From a virus: a stretch of 26,863 nucleotides of DNA. Position numbers and translations under genes: made by a program. Every line of letters starts with the position of its first letter. The first letter of the stretch is position 1. Positions 1 to 7,118 of the stretch are shown piece after piece. The stretch lies in IMG/VR virus record IMGVR_UViG_3300043464_000932, positions 1 through 26,863 of that record; one strand, written 5' to 3'. The notes under the pieces are model-generated. The model saw only the letters and a program-made list of their open reading frames with translations. It made no database searches and was not told where the DNA came from.

Positions 1-223
1 CGGCCCGCCGCTGGGCGAAGTGCCGCTCACGGCACTCCCGCGCCCGCTCTGCGATCTCGTCGGGCGTCGGGTCCACGATCCGCTTGCGGTACTTGCATAC
101 CCGATCCGGTATACCGTGCTCGCGGCGCAGTTCGTGCAGCCGTTGCCGCCGGATGCCGAGGTGCGCTGCGATCACGTCAGCAGGCACCCCGGCATCCCAC
201 ATCTGGCGAAGCGTCTCGACCAT
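1..223 (-). CDS. Partial gene: small helix-turn-helix protein, 3' end beyond the window
   Basis: The reading frame opens with ATG at 221-223 and stays open for 74 codons to the window edge, so the C-terminus is missing. Its ATG overlaps the TGA of the sliding-clamp gene by one base (TGATG), which supports this start and indicates translational coupling. Residues 7-37 (MWDAGVPADVIAAHLGIRR and the following basic helix) look like a homeodomain-like or GcrA-type helix-turn-helix: a Trp-containing helix, an Ile-Ala-X-X-Leu-Gly turn, then a basic recognition helix. A second charged segment beginning TPDEIAERARECRERH follows. DNA binding is inferred; the target is unknown. It is the last member visible of the replication operon and could regulate it. 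Confidence 0.6.
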   Translation of the reverse strand, partial: MVETLRQMWDAGVPADVIAAHLGIRRQRLHELRREHGIPDRVCKYRKRIVDPTPDEIAERARECRERHFAQRRA

Positions 224-1332
224 CAGTCCTTCGCCAACGGCATGACCACGCCGGTGCAGTCGCCGCACCGGAACACCACCGCGCTCTGAGCGTCCACCGC
301 CTCGACCTCGACGGGCTCGGCCTCATCCACGCCACGCAGGAACTCGACCACGAAGCCGGGGTCGAGCGCCACGCTCGCCGTCTGGCCCGCTTCGAGCAGC
401 CCGCACGTCACGCTCGACTGCCCCGCCTCGGCACTCTGCGCCGTCAGGTGGATGCCGTTCTCCACGAACGCGAACGTCACGCCCTTCGACTGCTCACTCG
501 TCACGATGGCCGCCTGCCGCGTCGCCGCCAGGAGCTCGGCCCCGTTCACGAGCGTGGCCTTCGCGTCCCGCTCGGGGATCACGTCACGCCACCGGGGGAA
601 GCGTCCCTCGACGAGCCGGGCCGTGACCACCGTGCCGTCGATGGTCGCCACCACCTCGCTCGAGGTGGCCTCCAACTGCACCGCCCCCTCGCTGTGCGAG
701 GCGATGCTGCTGATGGTCAGGATCGCACGCGCCGGGATCAGCGTCGTGGAGTCGTCCACGGCCTGGTCCACTTCGATGCCGTAGGACGAGAGCCGCCGCC
801 CGTCCGTGCCCACAAGCGTTACCGTGCCATCCTTCACCTCGACGAGCACCGCCCCAAGGGCGAACCGGCTGCTCTCGTTGTCCGTGGCGTAGGCCACCGC
901 CTTCACGGCCCGCACGAACTGGTCGGCCGGGATGCGGCAGATCGGCTTCACGGTGGGAGTTTCCCACTGTGGGAATTCCGCCGCGTCCTCGGTGGGTAGC
1001 GTCCACGTCCCACCGCCCACGCTCACGGTGCAAGAGTTGCCGCTGGGGGCCAGCGTCACCTCGTCGCCCGACGCGGCCCCAAGGATCGCCTGAAGCCTGG
1101 CGAACGGGAGCAGCAGGGGCGCGTCGGTGTACGGCACCTCGGCCGACACCTGGAGCTCGAGATCACTCGCCGTGATCCCGCCGTTTGCCAGCAAAACGTT
1201 CAACAGGATCGGCTTCGGGCTTCGGTTGGCGACGGCCGCACGGACCGTTGCCATTGCACTTCGGAGCGTTGCGATCGGCAGGGAGATGCCAGTAGTTCGA
1301 GTCTTTCGTCGTTCCTTCGTTGCTGTTGTCAT
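223..1332 (-). CDS. dnaN: DNA polymerase III beta subunit-like sliding clamp
   Basis: A 369-residue protein of normal bacterial beta-clamp length. After a short basic leader the first clamp domain begins near residue 16 (ISLPIATLRSAMATVRAAV), followed by a core resembling the clamp pattern of a conserved strand ending in leucines (KPILLNVLL) and ASDLELQV. Mid-domain SSRFALGAVLVEV and LVGTDGRRLS match the conserved clamp segment that in bacterial DnaN reads roughly as R-x-x-L-x-G-V...ATDGHRL. The C-terminus VVMPL is the usual clamp ending. Clamps form head-to-tail rings that tether polymerase to DNA. The start is set by AAAGGA about nine bases upstream. It sits at the end of the replication gene run, so it probably serves phage DNA synthesis or diverts host polymerase. 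No clamp loader or polymerase is seen in the window. Confidence 0.9.
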   Translation of the reverse strand: MTTATKERRKTRTTGISLPIATLRSAMATVRAAVANRSPKPILLNVLLANGGITASDLELQVSAEVPYTDAPLLLPFARLQAILGAASGDEVTLAPSGNSCTVSVGGGTWTLPTEDAAEFPQWETPTVKPICRIPADQFVRAVKAVAYATDNESSRFALGAVLVEVKDGTVTLVGTDGRRLSSYGIEVDQAVDDSTTLIPARAILTISSIASHSEGAVQLEATSSEVVATIDGTVVTARLVEGRFPRWRDVIPERDAKATLVNGAELLAATRQAAIVTSEQSKGVTFAFVENGIHLTAQSAEAGQSSVTCGLLEAGQTASVALDPGFVVEFLRGVDEAEPVEVEAVDAQSAVVFRCGDCTGVVMPLAKD

Positions 1333-3118: not shown

Positions 3119-3940
3119 TCAGGTCAGGGCCGGTGTCCTCGGCGTGTTCTTTCGCAACTGGCTCCAATCGCAATACGCCTGCTCAAACAACGCCGGGCTG
3201 CGGTGGCCAAGGTGCAGCCTCCCCGCGCCGGGTTTCTCCATTTCGCAATGCGTGGCACCTGAGCGGCGCAGCCACTTGGAACTGCCGCCGAGCCCCTGCT
3301 TGTCGAGCAGATCCCGCATCAATCTGTGGGCTCGCCGCCGCTTGCAGGCCCAGCCGAGGATCAACCCGTTCGGGCTTTTCGCCAGCATGGCGTCGATGGC
3401 GTCCAAGCACGCGGGCGTGAGCGGCCTGGTCAGCGGGTCGCCCGTCTTGCTCTGAGTCCACGCGAGCGTGTCGCCGTCGATGTTGTCACGGCCGAACGCC
3501 ATGACATCGCCAAACCGGGCACCGCACTCGTAGGCCAGCAATATCCAGCACCGCAGGAACTGTCCGAGATCGGCCCCGCTGCGGAGCCGCTTGCCGTTGT
3601 AGTCGGCCGTGGCCTTCAGGAGTTGCTGAAGTTGGGCAACCGTCCACGCCTTCGTGGGCTTTTTGCGGGCCTTCACCGTCATCACGCCACGCGGGGCCAC
3701 GTCCACAAGTTCGGCCTCGTAGGCAAACCGCCACAGCGTCAAGAGGATCGTGCGTTCGGCACGCACGGTGGTGCTCTGCAATTGCGATGAACGCACACGC
3801 AGGTAGCGATTCACGGCATCGCTAGATATTTCGCCGCACTTGGCCGCGATCCGCTTGACGTTCGCGGCGTAATGCACCGACACAATCCGCTCGGATAGGT
3901 AGCGTTCGGCCACCTGCTGAAAAGTCTTCTTGGCTTTCAT
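3119..3940 (-). CDS. Tyrosine recombinase, altered box II (second recombinase of the window)
   Basis: A 273-residue phage-integrase-family protein. An N-terminal SAM-like core-binding domain (about 1-90) is followed by the catalytic domain. Catalytic candidates are R142 in ECGARFGDV, K165 in the beta-hairpin TQSKTGDPL, R225 in SKWLRRSGAT, H246 in LGHRS, and the nucleophile Y256 in FEQAYCDW. The usual His of the H-x-x-R box II appears to be Lys (K222), a noticeable deviation. It is short, with no extra arm-binding N-terminal domain obvious. AAAGGA and AAAGG precede the ATG. The gene lies inside the early operon, minus strand, between a hypothetical gene and the nuclease, and not beside the lysogeny control region. 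It may act in dimer resolution, circularisation or inversion, or be a second integrase. Confidence 0.85.
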   Translation of the reverse strand: MKAKKTFQQVAERYLSERIVSVHYAANVKRIAAKCGEISSDAVNRYLRVRSSQLQSTTVRAERTILLTLWRFAYEAELVDVAPRGVMTVKARKKPTKAWTVAQLQQLLKATADYNGKRLRSGADLGQFLRCWILLAYECGARFGDVMAFGRDNIDGDTLAWTQSKTGDPLTRPLTPACLDAIDAMLAKSPNGLILGWACKRRRAHRLMRDLLDKQGLGGSSKWLRRSGATHCEMEKPGAGRLHLGHRSPALFEQAYCDWSQLRKNTPRTPALT

Positions 3941-4040: not shown

Positions 4041-4466
4041 TTACGCCTCGCCCGCTTGGCTGCCGCTCCCGTCTGCCGGGTTGCCCCCTGCGGCTGGGGC
4101 TGTTTCTTCTGCTTGATGCCCTTCCACGAGTCGTGCCACGCCATCGGCGTCTTCCTTCCAGGTTGCTGCGTCTTCCACCGTGTTCCTGGCCGCGAGCCAC
4201 GCGCTCATCAGCCTGTTGGTCCATCTGCCGTCCCACTCCTCGCCATCCAAGGCGTCGATCAACAGCACGAGGCGGGCGTGTATCCACTTCGCTTTCCTGG
4301 CGATCTGCGCGTCGGTGAGCATGGGCAGCGGGTCCGGGCCTCGACGGCCCGTAGGCTTCGGGGCGGCGCGTCGCCGCCGCTCGAAGACCTCGGGCTGCCG
4401 GGCCTCAAACTCGTTCCACTCGCGCGTTGTCGGCGGGTGGCCCTCGTTGATGCCACGTTCGCTCAT
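4041..4466 (-). CDS. Hypothetical protein, 141 aa, in recombination operon
   Basis: The ATG at 4464-4466 overlaps the TGA of the RecT-like gene (ATGA), so the two are likely co-translated. The product begins MSERGINEGHPPTTREWNEF and has a basic segment (ERRRRAAPKPTGRRG, about 29-43), a helical core with Trp residues and aliphatics (AKWIHARLVLLIDALDGEEW then WTNRLMSAWLAA), and an acidic, low-complexity tail rich in Gly, Ala, Glu and Asp. No family is recognised. A basic N-terminus plus an acidic tail is often seen in DNA- or SSB-associated proteins, and the position directly after an annealing protein suggests a recombination partner. This is inference only. Confidence 0.7.
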   Translation of the reverse strand: MSERGINEGHPPTTREWNEFEARQPEVFERRRRAAPKPTGRRGPDPLPMLTDAQIARKAKWIHARLVLLIDALDGEEWDGRWTNRLMSAWLAARNTVEDAATWKEDADGVARLVEGHQAEETAPAAGGNPADGSGSQAGEA

Positions 4467-5122
4467 CGGGCGTGTGCCTCCGCGTCGATCTCCTGGGCGT
4501 CGAAGTGCTCCACACCGTTGTCTTCGGGCTCGGCGTGCTCGAGCCGCTGCACGGCGGCTCTGGCCTGCGTCACGCGAACGGTCTGCTGCGGCCGGGCCGT
4601 TTGGTAGTCCTGTGCCTCCTCGGCAGTCACGAGGCCACGCAGGATGTCGGGGAACGCATCGCGGAGAGCGAAGCCCCTGGCCCGCAGTTGCAGCATCCGC
4701 TTCGGGTACTGCGTCCACGGTCCCGACTTGCCCCACAGGCTGGCCCGCTTGGCGTCCTCCACGGAGAACTCGACACGCACCGGGGCGTGGCCCCTCCGCT
4801 TGGCGATGCAGACCGCCTTCGGGTTGGGCGTGCCCTCGCCCTCAATCGTCTCCTCGATGCCCTCGCAGACCGGCGAGGCAAGGCAGAGAGCCTTCGCGGA
4901 GTCGCCCCAAATGCTGGGGCGGCCGTTGATGTTGGCGATGCACTGCAACGCCTGCATCGGGGCAAGGCCCAGCTCGGCACCGAAGGCGATCGCCCCGGCA
5001 CACTTCTCGGGCTGGCCCTGGTAATCCTTAGGCACAAGGCCGCTCGCGGCGGCAATCTTGCCCAGCGTCATCAAGTCGCCCACGGAAGAAACCCGCAGGC
5101 CGGTGGTCAGGTCAGTGCTCAT
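4463..5122 (-). CDS. recT: RecT-family single-strand annealing protein
   Basis: A 219-residue protein. The segment from ASGLVPKDYQGQPEKCAGAI through FGAELGLAPMQALQCIANIN, then GRPSIWGDSAKALCL, matches a recognised family of phage RecT-type recombinases: a Gly-rich ELGL...P-x-Q motif followed by ING-[RK]P-x-x-x-GD. WGKSGPWTQYPKRMLQLRAR and GFALRDAFPDILRGLV (about 130-165) are further hallmarks. RecT proteins coat single strands and anneal complementary DNA, usually with a partner exonuclease. No obvious RecE or lambda-type exonuclease is seen here; the PD-(D/E)XK protein at 2458-3093 could be the partner. The C-terminal 45 residues are acidic (AEPEDNGVEHFDAQEIDAEA), possibly an SSB- or partner-contact tail. 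A GAAAGGA site precedes the ATG. Confidence 0.78.
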   Translation of the reverse strand: MSTDLTTGLRVSSVGDLMTLGKIAAASGLVPKDYQGQPEKCAGAIAFGAELGLAPMQALQCIANINGRPSIWGDSAKALCLASPVCEGIEETIEGEGTPNPKAVCIAKRRGHAPVRVEFSVEDAKRASLWGKSGPWTQYPKRMLQLRARGFALRDAFPDILRGLVTAEEAQDYQTARPQQTVRVTQARAAVQRLEHAEPEDNGVEHFDAQEIDAEAHAR

Positions 5123-5225: not shown

Positions 5226-5447
5226 CTAATGCGTGATGTCGCTGACGGGGACGTAGAGCCACGCCCCGCCGACGTTCAGGCACATCAGCGGGCCGTCCAC
5301 CCACTCGACGTGGCCCGACCAGTGCTTGCCAGCGGTGTTGCCGCTGACGAAATCGCCATCGGCGGGCACCTGCCGGTTCACCAGACGACCGGCCGCCTCG
5401 AGCATCCCAGCCACCGCACCCGCGTACTCCCGTTCGTGAGCGTCCAT
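5226..5447 (-). CDS. Small hypothetical early protein, 73 aa
   Basis: The ATG at 5445-5447 is preceded by AGGGAGACTGAA, a good ribosome binding site. An in-frame upstream start would begin inside the promoter/operator DNA and is less likely. The first 24 residues (MDAHEREYAGAVAGMLEAAG) form an amphipathic helix. The rest is beta-rich (VSGNTAGKHWSGHVEWVDGP, then LYVPVSDI), as in a small SH3-like barrel. It is driven by its own operator-bearing promoter and begins the early operon that runs through the RecT-like gene. The small size and tight control resemble phage takeover proteins. No family is recognised. Confidence 0.65.
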   Translation of the reverse strand: MDAHEREYAGAVAGMLEAAGRLVNRQVPADGDFVSGNTAGKHWSGHVEWVDGPLMCLNVGGAWLYVPVSDITH

Positions 5448-5461
5448 TTCAGTCTCCCTTG

Positions 5462-5479
5462 TGTGCCAAGTTCGGTAGT
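5462..5479 (-). promoter_or_regulatory. Degenerate operator repeat at the transcription start of the early operon
   Basis: One of four copies of the 18-bp inverted repeat ACTACC-N6-GGTAGT; this copy reads TGTGCC-AAGTTC-GGTAGT. It keeps one perfect arm and lies just downstream of the -10 box of the promoter at 5480-5507, so a bound protein would block start or early elongation. Confidence 0.6.
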
Positions 5480-5507
5480 TCTGTACCAAAGTCGGTAGTT
5501 CGGTCAA
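5480..5507 (-). promoter_or_regulatory. Operator-containing promoter for the 73-aa gene and the recombination operon
   Basis: Read on the minus strand: -35 TTGACC (complement of 5502-5507), spacer of 16 bases, -10 TACAGA (complement of 5480-5485). The spacer holds the 18-bp inverted repeat TGTACC-AAAGTC-GGTAGT at 5482-5499, close in sequence to the perfect copy at 5671-5688. The -35 box overlaps the stop codon of the 47-residue upstream gene. With the half-degenerate copy at 5462-5479 this gives two adjacent operators. The -10 box is weak (three of six consensus bases), which fits a promoter that is off unless activated or derepressed. Confidence 0.6.
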
Positions 5508-5647
5508 CGGCAAAGTAATCCGATCACCGAAACCGCCAACTCAATTGCGTCGTGAACGGCCTTCGATGCCGGGGAATACGTTCCCAGGTCCTGGCCGATG
5601 CGGATCAGCACGAGAGCGTGCAGAGCGTTGTCCCAAGTCGGTTTCAC
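5504..5647 (-). CDS. Very small protein, 47 aa, GTG start
   Basis: GTG at 5645-5647 is placed five bases after a full AAAGGAG site. An in-frame ATG at 5660-5662 exists but lies at the predicted transcription start and before the binding site. The product begins MKPTWDNALHALVLIRIGQD, followed by GTYSPASKAVHDAIELAV. It is an amphipathic, helix-rich peptide ending in VIGLLCR. Its TGA overlaps the -35 box of the next promoter. It is driven by an operator-bearing promoter like its neighbours. Function unknown; an early switch or takeover peptide is possible. Confidence 0.55.
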   Translation of the reverse strand: MKPTWDNALHALVLIRIGQDLGTYSPASKAVHDAIELAVSVIGLLCR

Positions 5648-5668
5648 AATGACTCCTTTCATGTGGGG

Positions 5669-5696
5669 ATACTACCAAGTTCGGTAGTTCGGTCAA
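5669..5696 (-). promoter_or_regulatory. Operator-containing promoter for the 47-aa gene
   Basis: On the minus strand: -35 TTGACC (complement of 5691-5696), 16-base spacer, -10 TAGTAT (complement of 5669-5674). The spacer and the -10 are overlapped by a perfect 18-bp inverted repeat, ACTACC-AAGTTC-GGTAGT, at 5671-5688. This is the best conserved of the four copies and the likely strongest binding site. Confidence 0.7.
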
Positions 5697-5707
5697 CAGG
5701 AATTAAG

Positions 5708-5735
5708 AAAAAAATCTTTTCGGGCGTTTTCCCCG
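5708..5735 (-). terminator. Weak intrinsic-terminator-like signal after the HTH gene
   Basis: On the minus strand, a short CGGG/CCCG stem (complement of 5721-5724 and 5732-5735) is followed within a few bases by a seven-base T-run (complement of 5708-5714). It lies immediately after the stop of the 84-residue HTH gene, before the next promoter. The stem is only four base pairs, so termination would be inefficient. Confidence 0.35.
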
Positions 5736-5737
5736 TG

Positions 5738-5992
5738 CTATGCGCTCTTACGGCGGCGCTTCGGGGCGGGCTTCGAGGGCTTGTCCTTGGCCGCGTTGGA
5801 GCGGCTGGACAAGTTCTTGCGTAGGGCGACGGCCTCGGCCCGATCCACCATCCAAGTCCACTCGTTCACTTGGAAGCCGCCGAGTTTGCCCTCTCGCAGC
5901 AGGTGGCGAATCCAGCCGTCTGTGCAGCCAGCCAGATCGCAAGCCTCTGAAACGGAAACCCACTTGTTGTCGGGGGATGCCACGGTGCTCAT
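5738..5992 (-). CDS. Small helix-turn-helix DNA-binding protein (excisionase-like; candidate regulator of the operators)
   Basis: An 84-residue protein. Residues 9-60 (NKWVSVSEACDLAGCTDGWI, then RHLLREGKLGGFQV, then TWMVDRAEAVALR) match the HTH_17/MerR-like excisionase fold: a specifying helix-turn-helix, then a wing ending in a conserved hydrophobic pair. The tail is highly basic (KDKPSKPAPKRRRKS). It is transcribed opposite to the integrase, from a promoter holding one of the 18-bp repeats, so it may bind them and repress itself, or act as recombination directionality factor for the integrase, or both. The ATG falls at or within a base or two of the predicted transcription start, so its mRNA may be leaderless; GGAGG sits just before it. 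Confidence 0.75.
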   Translation of the reverse strand: MSTVASPDNKWVSVSEACDLAGCTDGWIRHLLREGKLGGFQVNEWTWMVDRAEAVALRKNLSSRSNAAKDKPSKPAPKRRRKSA

Positions 5993-5998
5993 GCCTCC

Positions 5999-6026
5999 AT
6001 ACTACCGAGTGCGGTAGGAAGTTCAA
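5999..6026 (-). promoter_or_regulatory. Operator-containing promoter for the HTH gene
   Basis: On the minus strand: -35 TTGAAC (complement of 6021-6026), 16-base spacer, -10 TAGTAT (complement of 5999-6004). The 18-bp inverted repeat ACTACC-GAGTGC-GGTAGG at 6001-6018 overlaps the -10 and spacer, as in the other two promoters. The predicted start is close to position 5992, the first base of the coding frame. Confidence 0.65.
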
Positions 6027-6198: not shown

Positions 6199-6228
6199 AT
6201 GAGGCCCCCAGGTAGGAGTACCACCTAA
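6199..6228 (+). CDS. Possible nine-residue leader peptide coupled to the integrase
   Basis: ATG at 6199 follows ACAGGAGGC, a strong binding site, and opens a nine-codon frame (MRPPGRSTT) whose TAA at 6226-6228 overlaps the integrase ATG by one base. The integrase's own TAGGAG site lies inside the leader, in GGTAGGAGTACC, a small inverted repeat. Translation of the leader could open or occlude it. May be chance; no family. Confidence 0.35.
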   Translation: MRPPGRSTT

Positions 6229-7118
6229 TGATGCTGTCAGAGCTTTTTTCCCGTGAATATGCCCCTCTTCGACGCCTGGGGCAGAAGAGCATCAACTGCT
6301 ACATGGTCAGCCTGCGGCACTTCGACAGACACTTGGGCGAGTCGGCACGGTTGGACCATTTGACGGACTTAACGGTGGCGCGGTTCCTAGCCGCCCGCGA
6401 GCGGGAAACCTGCCGGGCCACGGCGGCACGCGACCGCGTGCAGCTGCTGGCCCTGTGGCGGTACGCCGCCCGCAAGCGGATGAAGGCCAGCGATGGCACC
6501 CTGCTCGACTTCCCCGAGGTGCCGATCATGCGAGCCCCGGCCCGCGTCCCGGTGGCCTACACGTCGGATGACGTGGCACTGCTGATCCGCGAGGCCAGGA
6601 GGTTCACTGGCACCGTGGCAGGGATTCCCGAGGCTGATTGGTGGTCAAGTTTGTTGCTTTGCCTGTGGGAGTCGGGCGAGCGTATCAATGCCGTGATGCA
6701 CACCAAGTGGCGGGAGGTCGATACGGCAGGCCGCCGCATCACATTTCGGGCGGAAACGCGGAAAAACCAGACCCGCGACATAGACCGCCAGATTTCGCCC
6801 ACGCTGGCCGCTTGGCTGTCGGGGCGTATCCAGAGCCCAAATGCCCTTGTGTGGCCCTGGGACCGCAACGCATGCCTTCTGTGGAAGCGTATGCAGGGGA
6901 TAGCCGCCAGGGCACGGGTACAGTACCGTGGATTCCACGGGATACGCCGTGCCGCCGTGTCGTATGCGGAGGCAGCGTGCCCCGGAGCAGGTCAGAAGTT
7001 GGCGGATCACTCGAGCCCGTCGATCACCCAGAAGAGCTACCTCGATCCCCGGATTGTGCCGCAAGGTCCATCCGCACCGGATCTGCTGCCCAAACTGGAT
7101 TTGACGCCGCCGACGTAA
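6228..7118 (+). CDS. int: Phage integrase, tyrosine recombinase family
   Basis: A 296-residue protein with the complete catalytic set: R152 in ESGERINAV, K179 in ETRKNQTRD, H237-x-x-R240 in FHGIRRAAVS, H261 in LADHSSPS, and nucleophile Y271 in QKSYLDP. Residues 1-90 form the core-binding SAM-like domain; the catalytic domain starts near 110. It is the only convincing plus-strand gene and diverges from the HTH regulator, the classic arrangement of a lysogeny region. A double ATG (ATGATG) is present. Role: integration and excision of the prophage. It differs strongly from the recombinase at 3119-3940, so the two are not recent duplicates. Confidence 0.9.
   Translation: MMLSELFSREYAPLRRLGQKSINCYMVSLRHFDRHLGESARLDHLTDLTVARFLAARERETCRATAARDRVQLLALWRYAARKRMKASDGTLLDFPEVPIMRAPARVPVAYTSDDVALLIREARRFTGTVAGIPEADWWSSLLLCLWESGERINAVMHTKWREVDTAGRRITFRAETRKNQTRDIDRQISPTLAAWLSGRIQSPNALVWPWDRNACLLWKRMQGIAARARVQYRGFHGIRRAAVSYAEAACPGAGQKLADHSSPSITQKSYLDPRIVPQGPSAPDLLPKLDLTPPT

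Follow-up and report, generated by a model that had tools for sequence, protein, structure and literature searches.

Covariation between a small winged-helix protein and inverted repeats at early promoters suggests a repressor–operator system in a group of uncultured phages

The window analysed here, meaning the whole stretch of DNA, is a 26,863-base environmental virus record (IMG/VR IMGVR_UViG_3300043464_000932, positions 1 to 26,863) with genes for terminase, portal, head and tail proteins, an exonuclease, RecT and an integrase; these make it a siphovirus-like and probably temperate phage. The tyrosine integrase gene (6228..7118, plus strand) was recognized by its PHROG integrase match (E 3.3e-20), the Pfam score of 23.4 bits being below the cut-off. 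On the minus strand, divergent from the integrase, lie a small helix-turn-helix (HTH) gene (5738..5992), a small ORF (5504..5662), a 74-residue ORF without a Pfam match (5226..5448) and, as the next gene of the early region, recT (4463..5122; Pfam RecT 30.1 bits, cut-off 24). The HTH gene is annotated as a regulator of the excisionase/BldC fold on the basis of Pfam HTH_17, an AlphaFold2 model, fold matches and covariation, as described below. The small ORF likely starts at GTG 5645-5647 behind AAAGGAG and would encode 47 amino acids, and a homologue of this protein is found downstream of the HTH gene in 78 of 114 relatives. Further along the early region there is a second tyrosine-recombinase-like gene (3119-3940, minus strand; PHROG integrase E 1e-22), and a homologue of the DNA polymerase III beta clamp (223-1332, minus strand) lies near the gene for a replication initiation protein (1629-2468).

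Relatives of the HTH protein were collected from IMG/VR, three of the sets being limited to the best 80 of 404, 108 and 151 matches. This gave 213 ORF matches, 126 distinct protein-plus-upstream records and 114 distinct proteins, which were reduced to 62 representatives at 88% identity. An integrase domain was present in all 20 related records, 18 of them over the cut-off, and in seven of eight records compared the divergent integrase lies about 0.5-1 kb from the promoters P1/P2 described below; in the eighth (G001), the search showed the second recombinase only. Among isolate phage records there was no clear homologue of the HTH protein, the one match being partial with an E of 0.04. Searching a genome collection with the HTH alignment returned one weak match, on a Melainabacteria bin contig, and the terminase and RecT matches in isolate phages were all below 60% identity with diverse hosts, so that neither route found the host. 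An early suspicion of a planctomycete host was dropped, as no search result stood behind it.

Three minus-strand promoters of the form TTGAnC-16-TAnnnn can be read from the sequence, as the first-pass annotation had claimed. P1 (5999..6026, TTGAAC-16-TAGTAT) lies upstream of the HTH gene, P2 (5669..5696, TTGACC-16-TAGTAT) upstream of the small ORF and P3 (5480..5507, TTGACC-16-TACAGA) upstream of the 74-residue ORF. Each carries an 18-bp dyad on the same strand with the consensus ACTACCR-N4-YGGTAGT, which is perfect to a varying degree and extends across the spacer into the -10 box, taking up its first four bases. Operator O1 (6001..6018, CCTACCG-N4-CGGTAGT) has one mismatch, O2 (5671..5688, ACTACCG-N4-TGGTAGT) has none and O3a (5482..5499, ACTACCG-N4-TGGTACA) has two. 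The dyads had initially been placed inside the spacer, which is correct for part of their length; the right arm runs on and supplies the TAGT of the -10 box. Positions 5462..5479, taken at first for a half copy, turned out to hold a whole, degenerate second dyad on the minus strand (O3b, three mismatches), 20 bp downstream of O3a, and tandem copies also occur in two related records, G006 and G007. Between the HTH gene and P2 there is a terminator-like stretch (5708..5735, minus strand; CGGG-GAAAACG-CCCG, then AAAAGA and T7), which a stricter scan of the window did not flag. A hairpin with a T tract is found at this place in 38 of 85 distinct intervals in relatives, against 3.6 in shuffles, and the HTH gene would thus be a transcription unit of its own.

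The window was scanned for ACTACC-N6-GGTAGT with up to three mismatches, which gave nine places compared to 3.57 (sd 1.85) expected; two of 100 shuffles reach nine, so the excess within the window alone is moderate. Four of the nine are O1, O2, O3a and O3b, and the best of the other five (2667-2684) has two mismatches. All four dyads are kept in eight of eight near relatives (L003-L010), whose HTH proteins are 88-100% identical and which are therefore not independent of one another. This recurrence shows that the dyads are more than chance, and it bears out the expectation that the repeats would be conserved in relatives, although wider relatives carry other dyads. An additional dyad-like site, with one or two mismatches depending on the strand, occurs in L007 (11659), L008 (10558) and L009 (10837), about 4.6-5.7 kb past the start of the HTH gene.

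Beyond the near relatives, eight related records were scanned with patterns fitted by eye to each, three of them whole and five over 38,000 or 40,000 bases of 38,272-43,658. In G003, G006 and G014 all matches of the informative patterns fall within the early region, the symmetric pattern giving no match in G014. The best dyad matches of G001, G002 and G007 are also in the early region; outside it there are dyad-like sites in G002 (10,151, one mismatch) and G001 (30,819, two mismatches), and these three records have three-mismatch sites in numbers near those of shuffled sequence. The symmetric pattern did not exceed shuffled sequence, or stayed within twofold of it, in G011 and G013, where a left-half pattern picks the P2- and P3-like sites (two of three and two of two matches, respectively). 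Across the whole collection, the bare pattern ACTACCGNNNTTGGTAGT was found in 87 stretches, eight of which are contigs of the near relatives. The HTH profile at E 1e-3 finds no HTH relative in the other 79, showing that the bare pattern is not specific.

The promoter layout is mostly kept in the wider family, while the dyads differ between groups. Among the 62 representatives, 54 have a TTG..-TA...T promoter upstream of the HTH start, 46 a P2-type promoter just past the HTH stop and 51 a promoter further downstream (P3+, a class that includes the P4 promoters described at the end), and the spacer is 16 bp in most members. Half-sites were read by the rule ..T..CG at set offsets, which left out 25 of the 114 proteins for lack of a P2 by this rule. 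In the remaining 89, the P2 half-sites are ACTAACG (22), ACTACCG (16), ACTGACG (16), AGTAACG (15), TTTACCG (7), AGTGACG (4), TCTAACG (3), GGTTCCG (2) and four singles; the family has at least six operator types. At gap 4, the arms of P2 in the clade of the window (14 distinct) agree as inverted repeats far better than as direct repeats (5.64 versus 1.57 of 7), whereas the dyads of the second large clade are poor (3.44 inverted versus 1.17 direct of 7 at gap 5). Within one phage, P2 and P3 share their core in 16 of 19 cases, compared to 6.3 expected. Even and odd dyad spacings also separate the two clades at P1 and P2, with even:odd ratios of 16:1 versus 1:10 (two ties) and 19:0 versus 0:3, respectively; at P3+ the ratios are 16:0 (one tie) versus 8:7, and we therefore take spacing as a clade marker to be minor support. 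The clade labels behind these ratios were assigned by a text pattern under which some members of the second clade fell into 'other'; a wider pattern was used for the residue–base counts given below.

The HTH gene had been described as encoding 84 residues. Its length is probably 81 codons, starting at GTG 5981-5983. In all 99 distinct gene starts whose P1 could be read, a second start codon (ATG, GTG or TTG) is present at codon 3 or 4, i.e. 6 or 9 nt after the first (5981-5992 in the window, and likewise in relatives). At this second position, valine is always encoded by GTG (32 of 32) and leucine by TTG (12 of 12), compared to 199 of 573 and 64 of 942 elsewhere in the HTH genes. The first ATG lies 6-7 nt beyond the -10 box in 117 of 120 cases; it probably marks the transcription start of the HTH gene, the transcript of which would be leaderless or nearly so.

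The window protein scores 18.7 bits against Pfam HTH_17 (PF12728), short of the cut-off of 27 (E 0.0021). Its AlphaFold2 model is a winged HTH with a mean pLDDT of 76, in which residues 25-34 form the recognition helix, with W27, H30 and R33 in the window protein. The model has no helix beyond residue 60; the tail, up to the end of the protein at residue 84, has a pLDDT of 63-67, at which a short helix is possible. In fold it comes closest to BldC, Pukovnik Xis and proteins of the MerR type, with middling Z scores of 6-6.5, and Foldseek gave no match at E <= 0.001. A phmmer search with the single protein against the PDB found no match, and in a profile search Pukovnik Xis (PDB 4J2N) was the sole solved structure found (E 4.5e-5; model comparison Z 6.2, 54 residues, rmsd 3.2). 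Against BldC (Z 6.5 and 6.3), residues 10-60 superpose on residues 10-60 without offset (51 of 51 aligned), so that residue 30 aligns with BldC residue 30, and residue 33 lies about one turn further. According to an excerpt of PMC5859096, Arg30 of BldC contacts a guanine; for our model, the natural reading is that Arg33 would face the G opposite C5 of the half-site.

To relate protein to operator, the mutual information between each column of the HTH alignment and each half-site base was calculated. Base 5 of P2 is tied to residue 33, which accounts for 0.88 of the base-5 entropy compared to 0.60 for the next column. In the 89 of 114 proteins with a readable P2, Arg33 is accompanied by C5 in 26 of 26 cases and a non-Arg residue by a non-C base in 62 of 63; restricted to the two large clades, outside which lie six of these proteins, the counts are 25 of 25 and 58 of 58. 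P3 gives 14 of 15 and 29 of 30, respectively, and the link is weaker at P1, where Arg33 occurs with C in 29 of 34 and non-Arg with non-C in 45 of 54 (with C in 9 of 54). Because the HTH gene and its operators are physically linked, common descent inflates all of these raw counts. For bases 2 and 4, the top-ranking columns include residues 27 and 30. At P2 in the window's clade, W27 occurs with C2 (20 of 20), Y27 with G2 (15 of 16) and L27 with T2 (7 of 7). W27 is uninformative in the second clade, where it is found with C in 35 cases, G in 4 and A in 1. The mutual information makes the pairing of W27 with base 2 and of H/T30 with base 4 suggestive.

Three analyses address the effect of linkage and descent on the pairing at position 33. 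The linked 47-aa protein does not match it: the best phi to base 5 is 0.97 for Arg33 (89 phages), compared to 0.49 for residues of that protein (65 phages). When columns 25, 27, 30 and 33 are left out of the tree, R33 changes six times and C5 seven times; five changes coincide in branch and direction (hypergeometric 9e-8), which ranks first among 192 residue traits. An independent-pairs test found three supported contrasts only, with a median p of 0.25 and none opposed. In addition, the prediction that Arg33 goes with C5 was recorded before three new sets were fetched, which contained 72 new proteins; P2 could be read in 48 of them and not in the other 24. All 31 new Arg33 proteins have C, and all 17 non-Arg proteins, one of which has a gap at position 33, lack it; with one count per helix segment the numbers are 20 of 20 and 16 of 16. 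These new proteins are relatives of known subclades and hence not fully independent.

From these data we infer direct binding by the HTH protein as a dimer and repression rather than activation. The HTH protein very probably binds the dyads and represses P1-P3, and it is favoured as the binder because the dyad sequence follows its recognition helix; the earlier proposal that one protein controls three units through the repeat thus most likely holds, with the adjacent HTH protein in that role. A small winged-helix protein with the excisionase/BldC fold, it would bind the 18-bp dyad as a symmetric pair in which each half-site receives one recognition helix and is read by residues 27, 30 and 33. 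The symmetric pair is suggested because the arms are inverted repeats, unlike the sites of BldC and Apl. Since the dyad overlaps the -10 box as well as the spacer, binding would exclude RNA polymerase, and repression would occur by occlusion. The protein would in this way repress its own gene from P1 together with the two promoters behind it, P2 and P3, which would open the early region with recT and the replication genes.

We considered whether the repeats need such a regulator at all. Chance repeats in a GC-rich phage might account for the three-mismatch matches elsewhere in the window and for the bare pattern in the 79 viral stretches where no HTH relative was detected, but the repeats are conserved at the same promoters in eight of eight near relatives and are found again, as different sequences, in the wider family; conservation refutes this explanation, and we give it almost no weight. 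It is very unlikely that the repeats are a conserved promoter type whose spacer motif is read by RNA polymerase: the dyad does sit at the promoter, with its right arm part of the -10 box, yet the motif varies by phage group and follows the HTH protein, and O3b is outside the -35/-10 frame. That the dyad is bound by some other protein, of the host or of the phage, with the HTH protein a mere bystander, is unlikely, if less so. Linked HTH genes and operators would correlate by descent under this explanation too; however, a single helix position outperforms every other HTH column as well as the linked 47-aa protein, and residue 33 predicted the new cases. Moreover, the P4 promoters keep one motif across differing dyads, as a shared host site would, although the right half of that motif was fixed by the search pattern.

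The role of the protein in the phage life cycle is less certain. Our preferred reading, held tentatively and at somewhat under an even chance, is that it is the immunity (lysogeny) repressor in place of a CI-type protein. A serious alternative, which we also put below even, keeps the same binder and operators and casts the protein as an early regulator of the Cro/Cox/Apl kind or as an excisionase, which in lytic growth would hold down its own synthesis and early transcription; the lysogeny repressor would then be another, unrecognized gene. An Apl-like double role is favoured by the excisionase fold and the place beside int: the fold is closest to excisionases and BldC, and the gene adjoins the divergent int and is transcribed in the early direction. 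There are precedents, since Apl of phage 186 is both an excisionase and a transcriptional regulator (excerpt of PMC7498355), and XisF4 of Pf4 has a transcriptional role (excerpt of PMC7379572). On the other hand, Apl and other recombination directionality factors use direct repeats, and Apl monomers have low sequence specificity, as described in an excerpt of PMC7498355, whereas here the repeats are inverted and the residue–base links sharp. In addition, O1 is the sole dyad near the integrase at up to three mismatches, the position of attP not being fixed.

The lysogeny repressor is in turn favoured because there is an integrase, a seemingly isolated transcription unit, a diversity of operators and no CI-type domain over the cut-off, and because operator types differ by phage group, as immunity groups would. 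HTH_3 was over the cut-off in none of 21 related records, whose completeness is uncertified (20 with an HTH relative and G019, found by RecT only), with weak matches below it in six (E 0.0015-0.0097), so that a CI gene could be missed; the S24 peptidase domain was in none of 20. By Pfam, the window HTH protein has neither domain. No CI-like repressor was over the Pfam cut-off among 15 distinct window proteins and 13 left-arm ORFs of one near relative, a subset picked by eye in which a ribbon-helix-helix or unfamiliar fold could escape. With the same tentativeness as the lysogeny role itself, one could then picture a widespread group of environmental temperate phages with an excisionase-fold immunity repressor rather than a CI-type one, in which helix changes at 27, 30 and 33, including the Arg/non-Arg switch at 33, would repeatedly have made new operator specificities and hence new immunity groups.

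Compared with known systems, the HTH protein resembles Pukovnik Xis (PDB 4J2N), Apl and RdfS in fold (by way of the 4J2N match), in small size and in a gene beside the integrase; the winged HTH fold of the Xis type and a gene next to a tyrosine integrase, which characterize the winged-helix excisionases, are both found here. Excerpts of PMC7498355 and PMC11963761 describe Apl and RdfS as regulators of transcription as well. The direct repeats of Apl lie one turn apart (excerpt of PMC7498355), while those of the HTH family are 18/19-bp inverted repeats at promoters. BldC of Streptomyces is likewise a regulator consisting of a winged HTH only, with the same fold, and a recognition-helix arginine that reads guanine (excerpt of PMC5859096). 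It forms head-to-tail multimers on direct repeats, in contrast to the dyads found here, which are clearest in the clade of the window.

The MerR family, which acts by an untwisting mechanism on promoters with a long spacer, also places a dyad between -35 and -10; in our phages the right arm enters the -10 box, and the 16-bp spacer of most members points to occlusion rather than untwisting. The HTH protein differs from this family in being without an effector-binding domain behind a long dimerisation helix. Correlations of recognition-helix residues with bases were computed for the MerR family before (excerpt of PMC5045206), so the method is not new. Lambdoid Cro and CI are also phage repressors with co-varying operators, and a recognition code was suggested for Cro (excerpt of PMC5045206); in contrast to that system, HTH_3 over the cut-off and S24 were undetected in the related records, and the HTH gene shares its orientation with the early genes, its proposed targets. 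The stoperator repressors of mycobacteriophages are similar in being non-CI proteins with differing immunity specificities, yet an excerpt of PMC9283540 describes a monomer on asymmetric sites that are numerous genome-wide, compared to about four dyads in one early region here.

No matching repressor/operator system was found among the literature matches listed, and the initial impression of an unfamiliar pair holds as far as searched, in agreement with the domain and isolate-phage searches above. The fold is known; its dyad-linked, sharply specific phage version and the operator series look new. A probable early regulator can thus be identified by sequence alone for uncultured temperate phages without a recognized CI-type domain, together with a natural series of operators, six types or more, and the recognition helices that match them. 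Of this fold, the relatives that have been studied, Apl and BldC, use direct repeats. If the lysogeny reading is true, immunity groups could be predicted from metagenomes.

Two other features recur around these operators in the relatives. A perfect stem of 5-6 bp is present in 39 of 82 distinct P2 leaders, compared to 4.6 in shuffles, about 70-110 nt past the HTH stop (e.g. L018, L024, L238 and L289), so that these P2 transcripts would start with a hairpin. The stems vary (GCGAG/CTCGC, GTCAGG/CCTGAC, GCGGG/CCCGC), and the loop mostly ends in TGAGA; the P2 leader of the window has no such hairpin, and ten sources compared with Rfam gave no match. A further promoter pattern, P4, occurs in 70 of 114 relatives about 0.5-1.8 kb past the HTH start (e.g. 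L045 and L238), some of its matches (e.g. L210 and L217) being P2 itself. Its motif, TGAAC-N4-GTACA over the -10 box, is the same across HTH operator types; since the right half was largely prescribed by the search itself, the evidence lies in the left half (T 52, G 48 and C 58 of 62). The P4 motif is possibly a host site, perhaps a LexA-like one.
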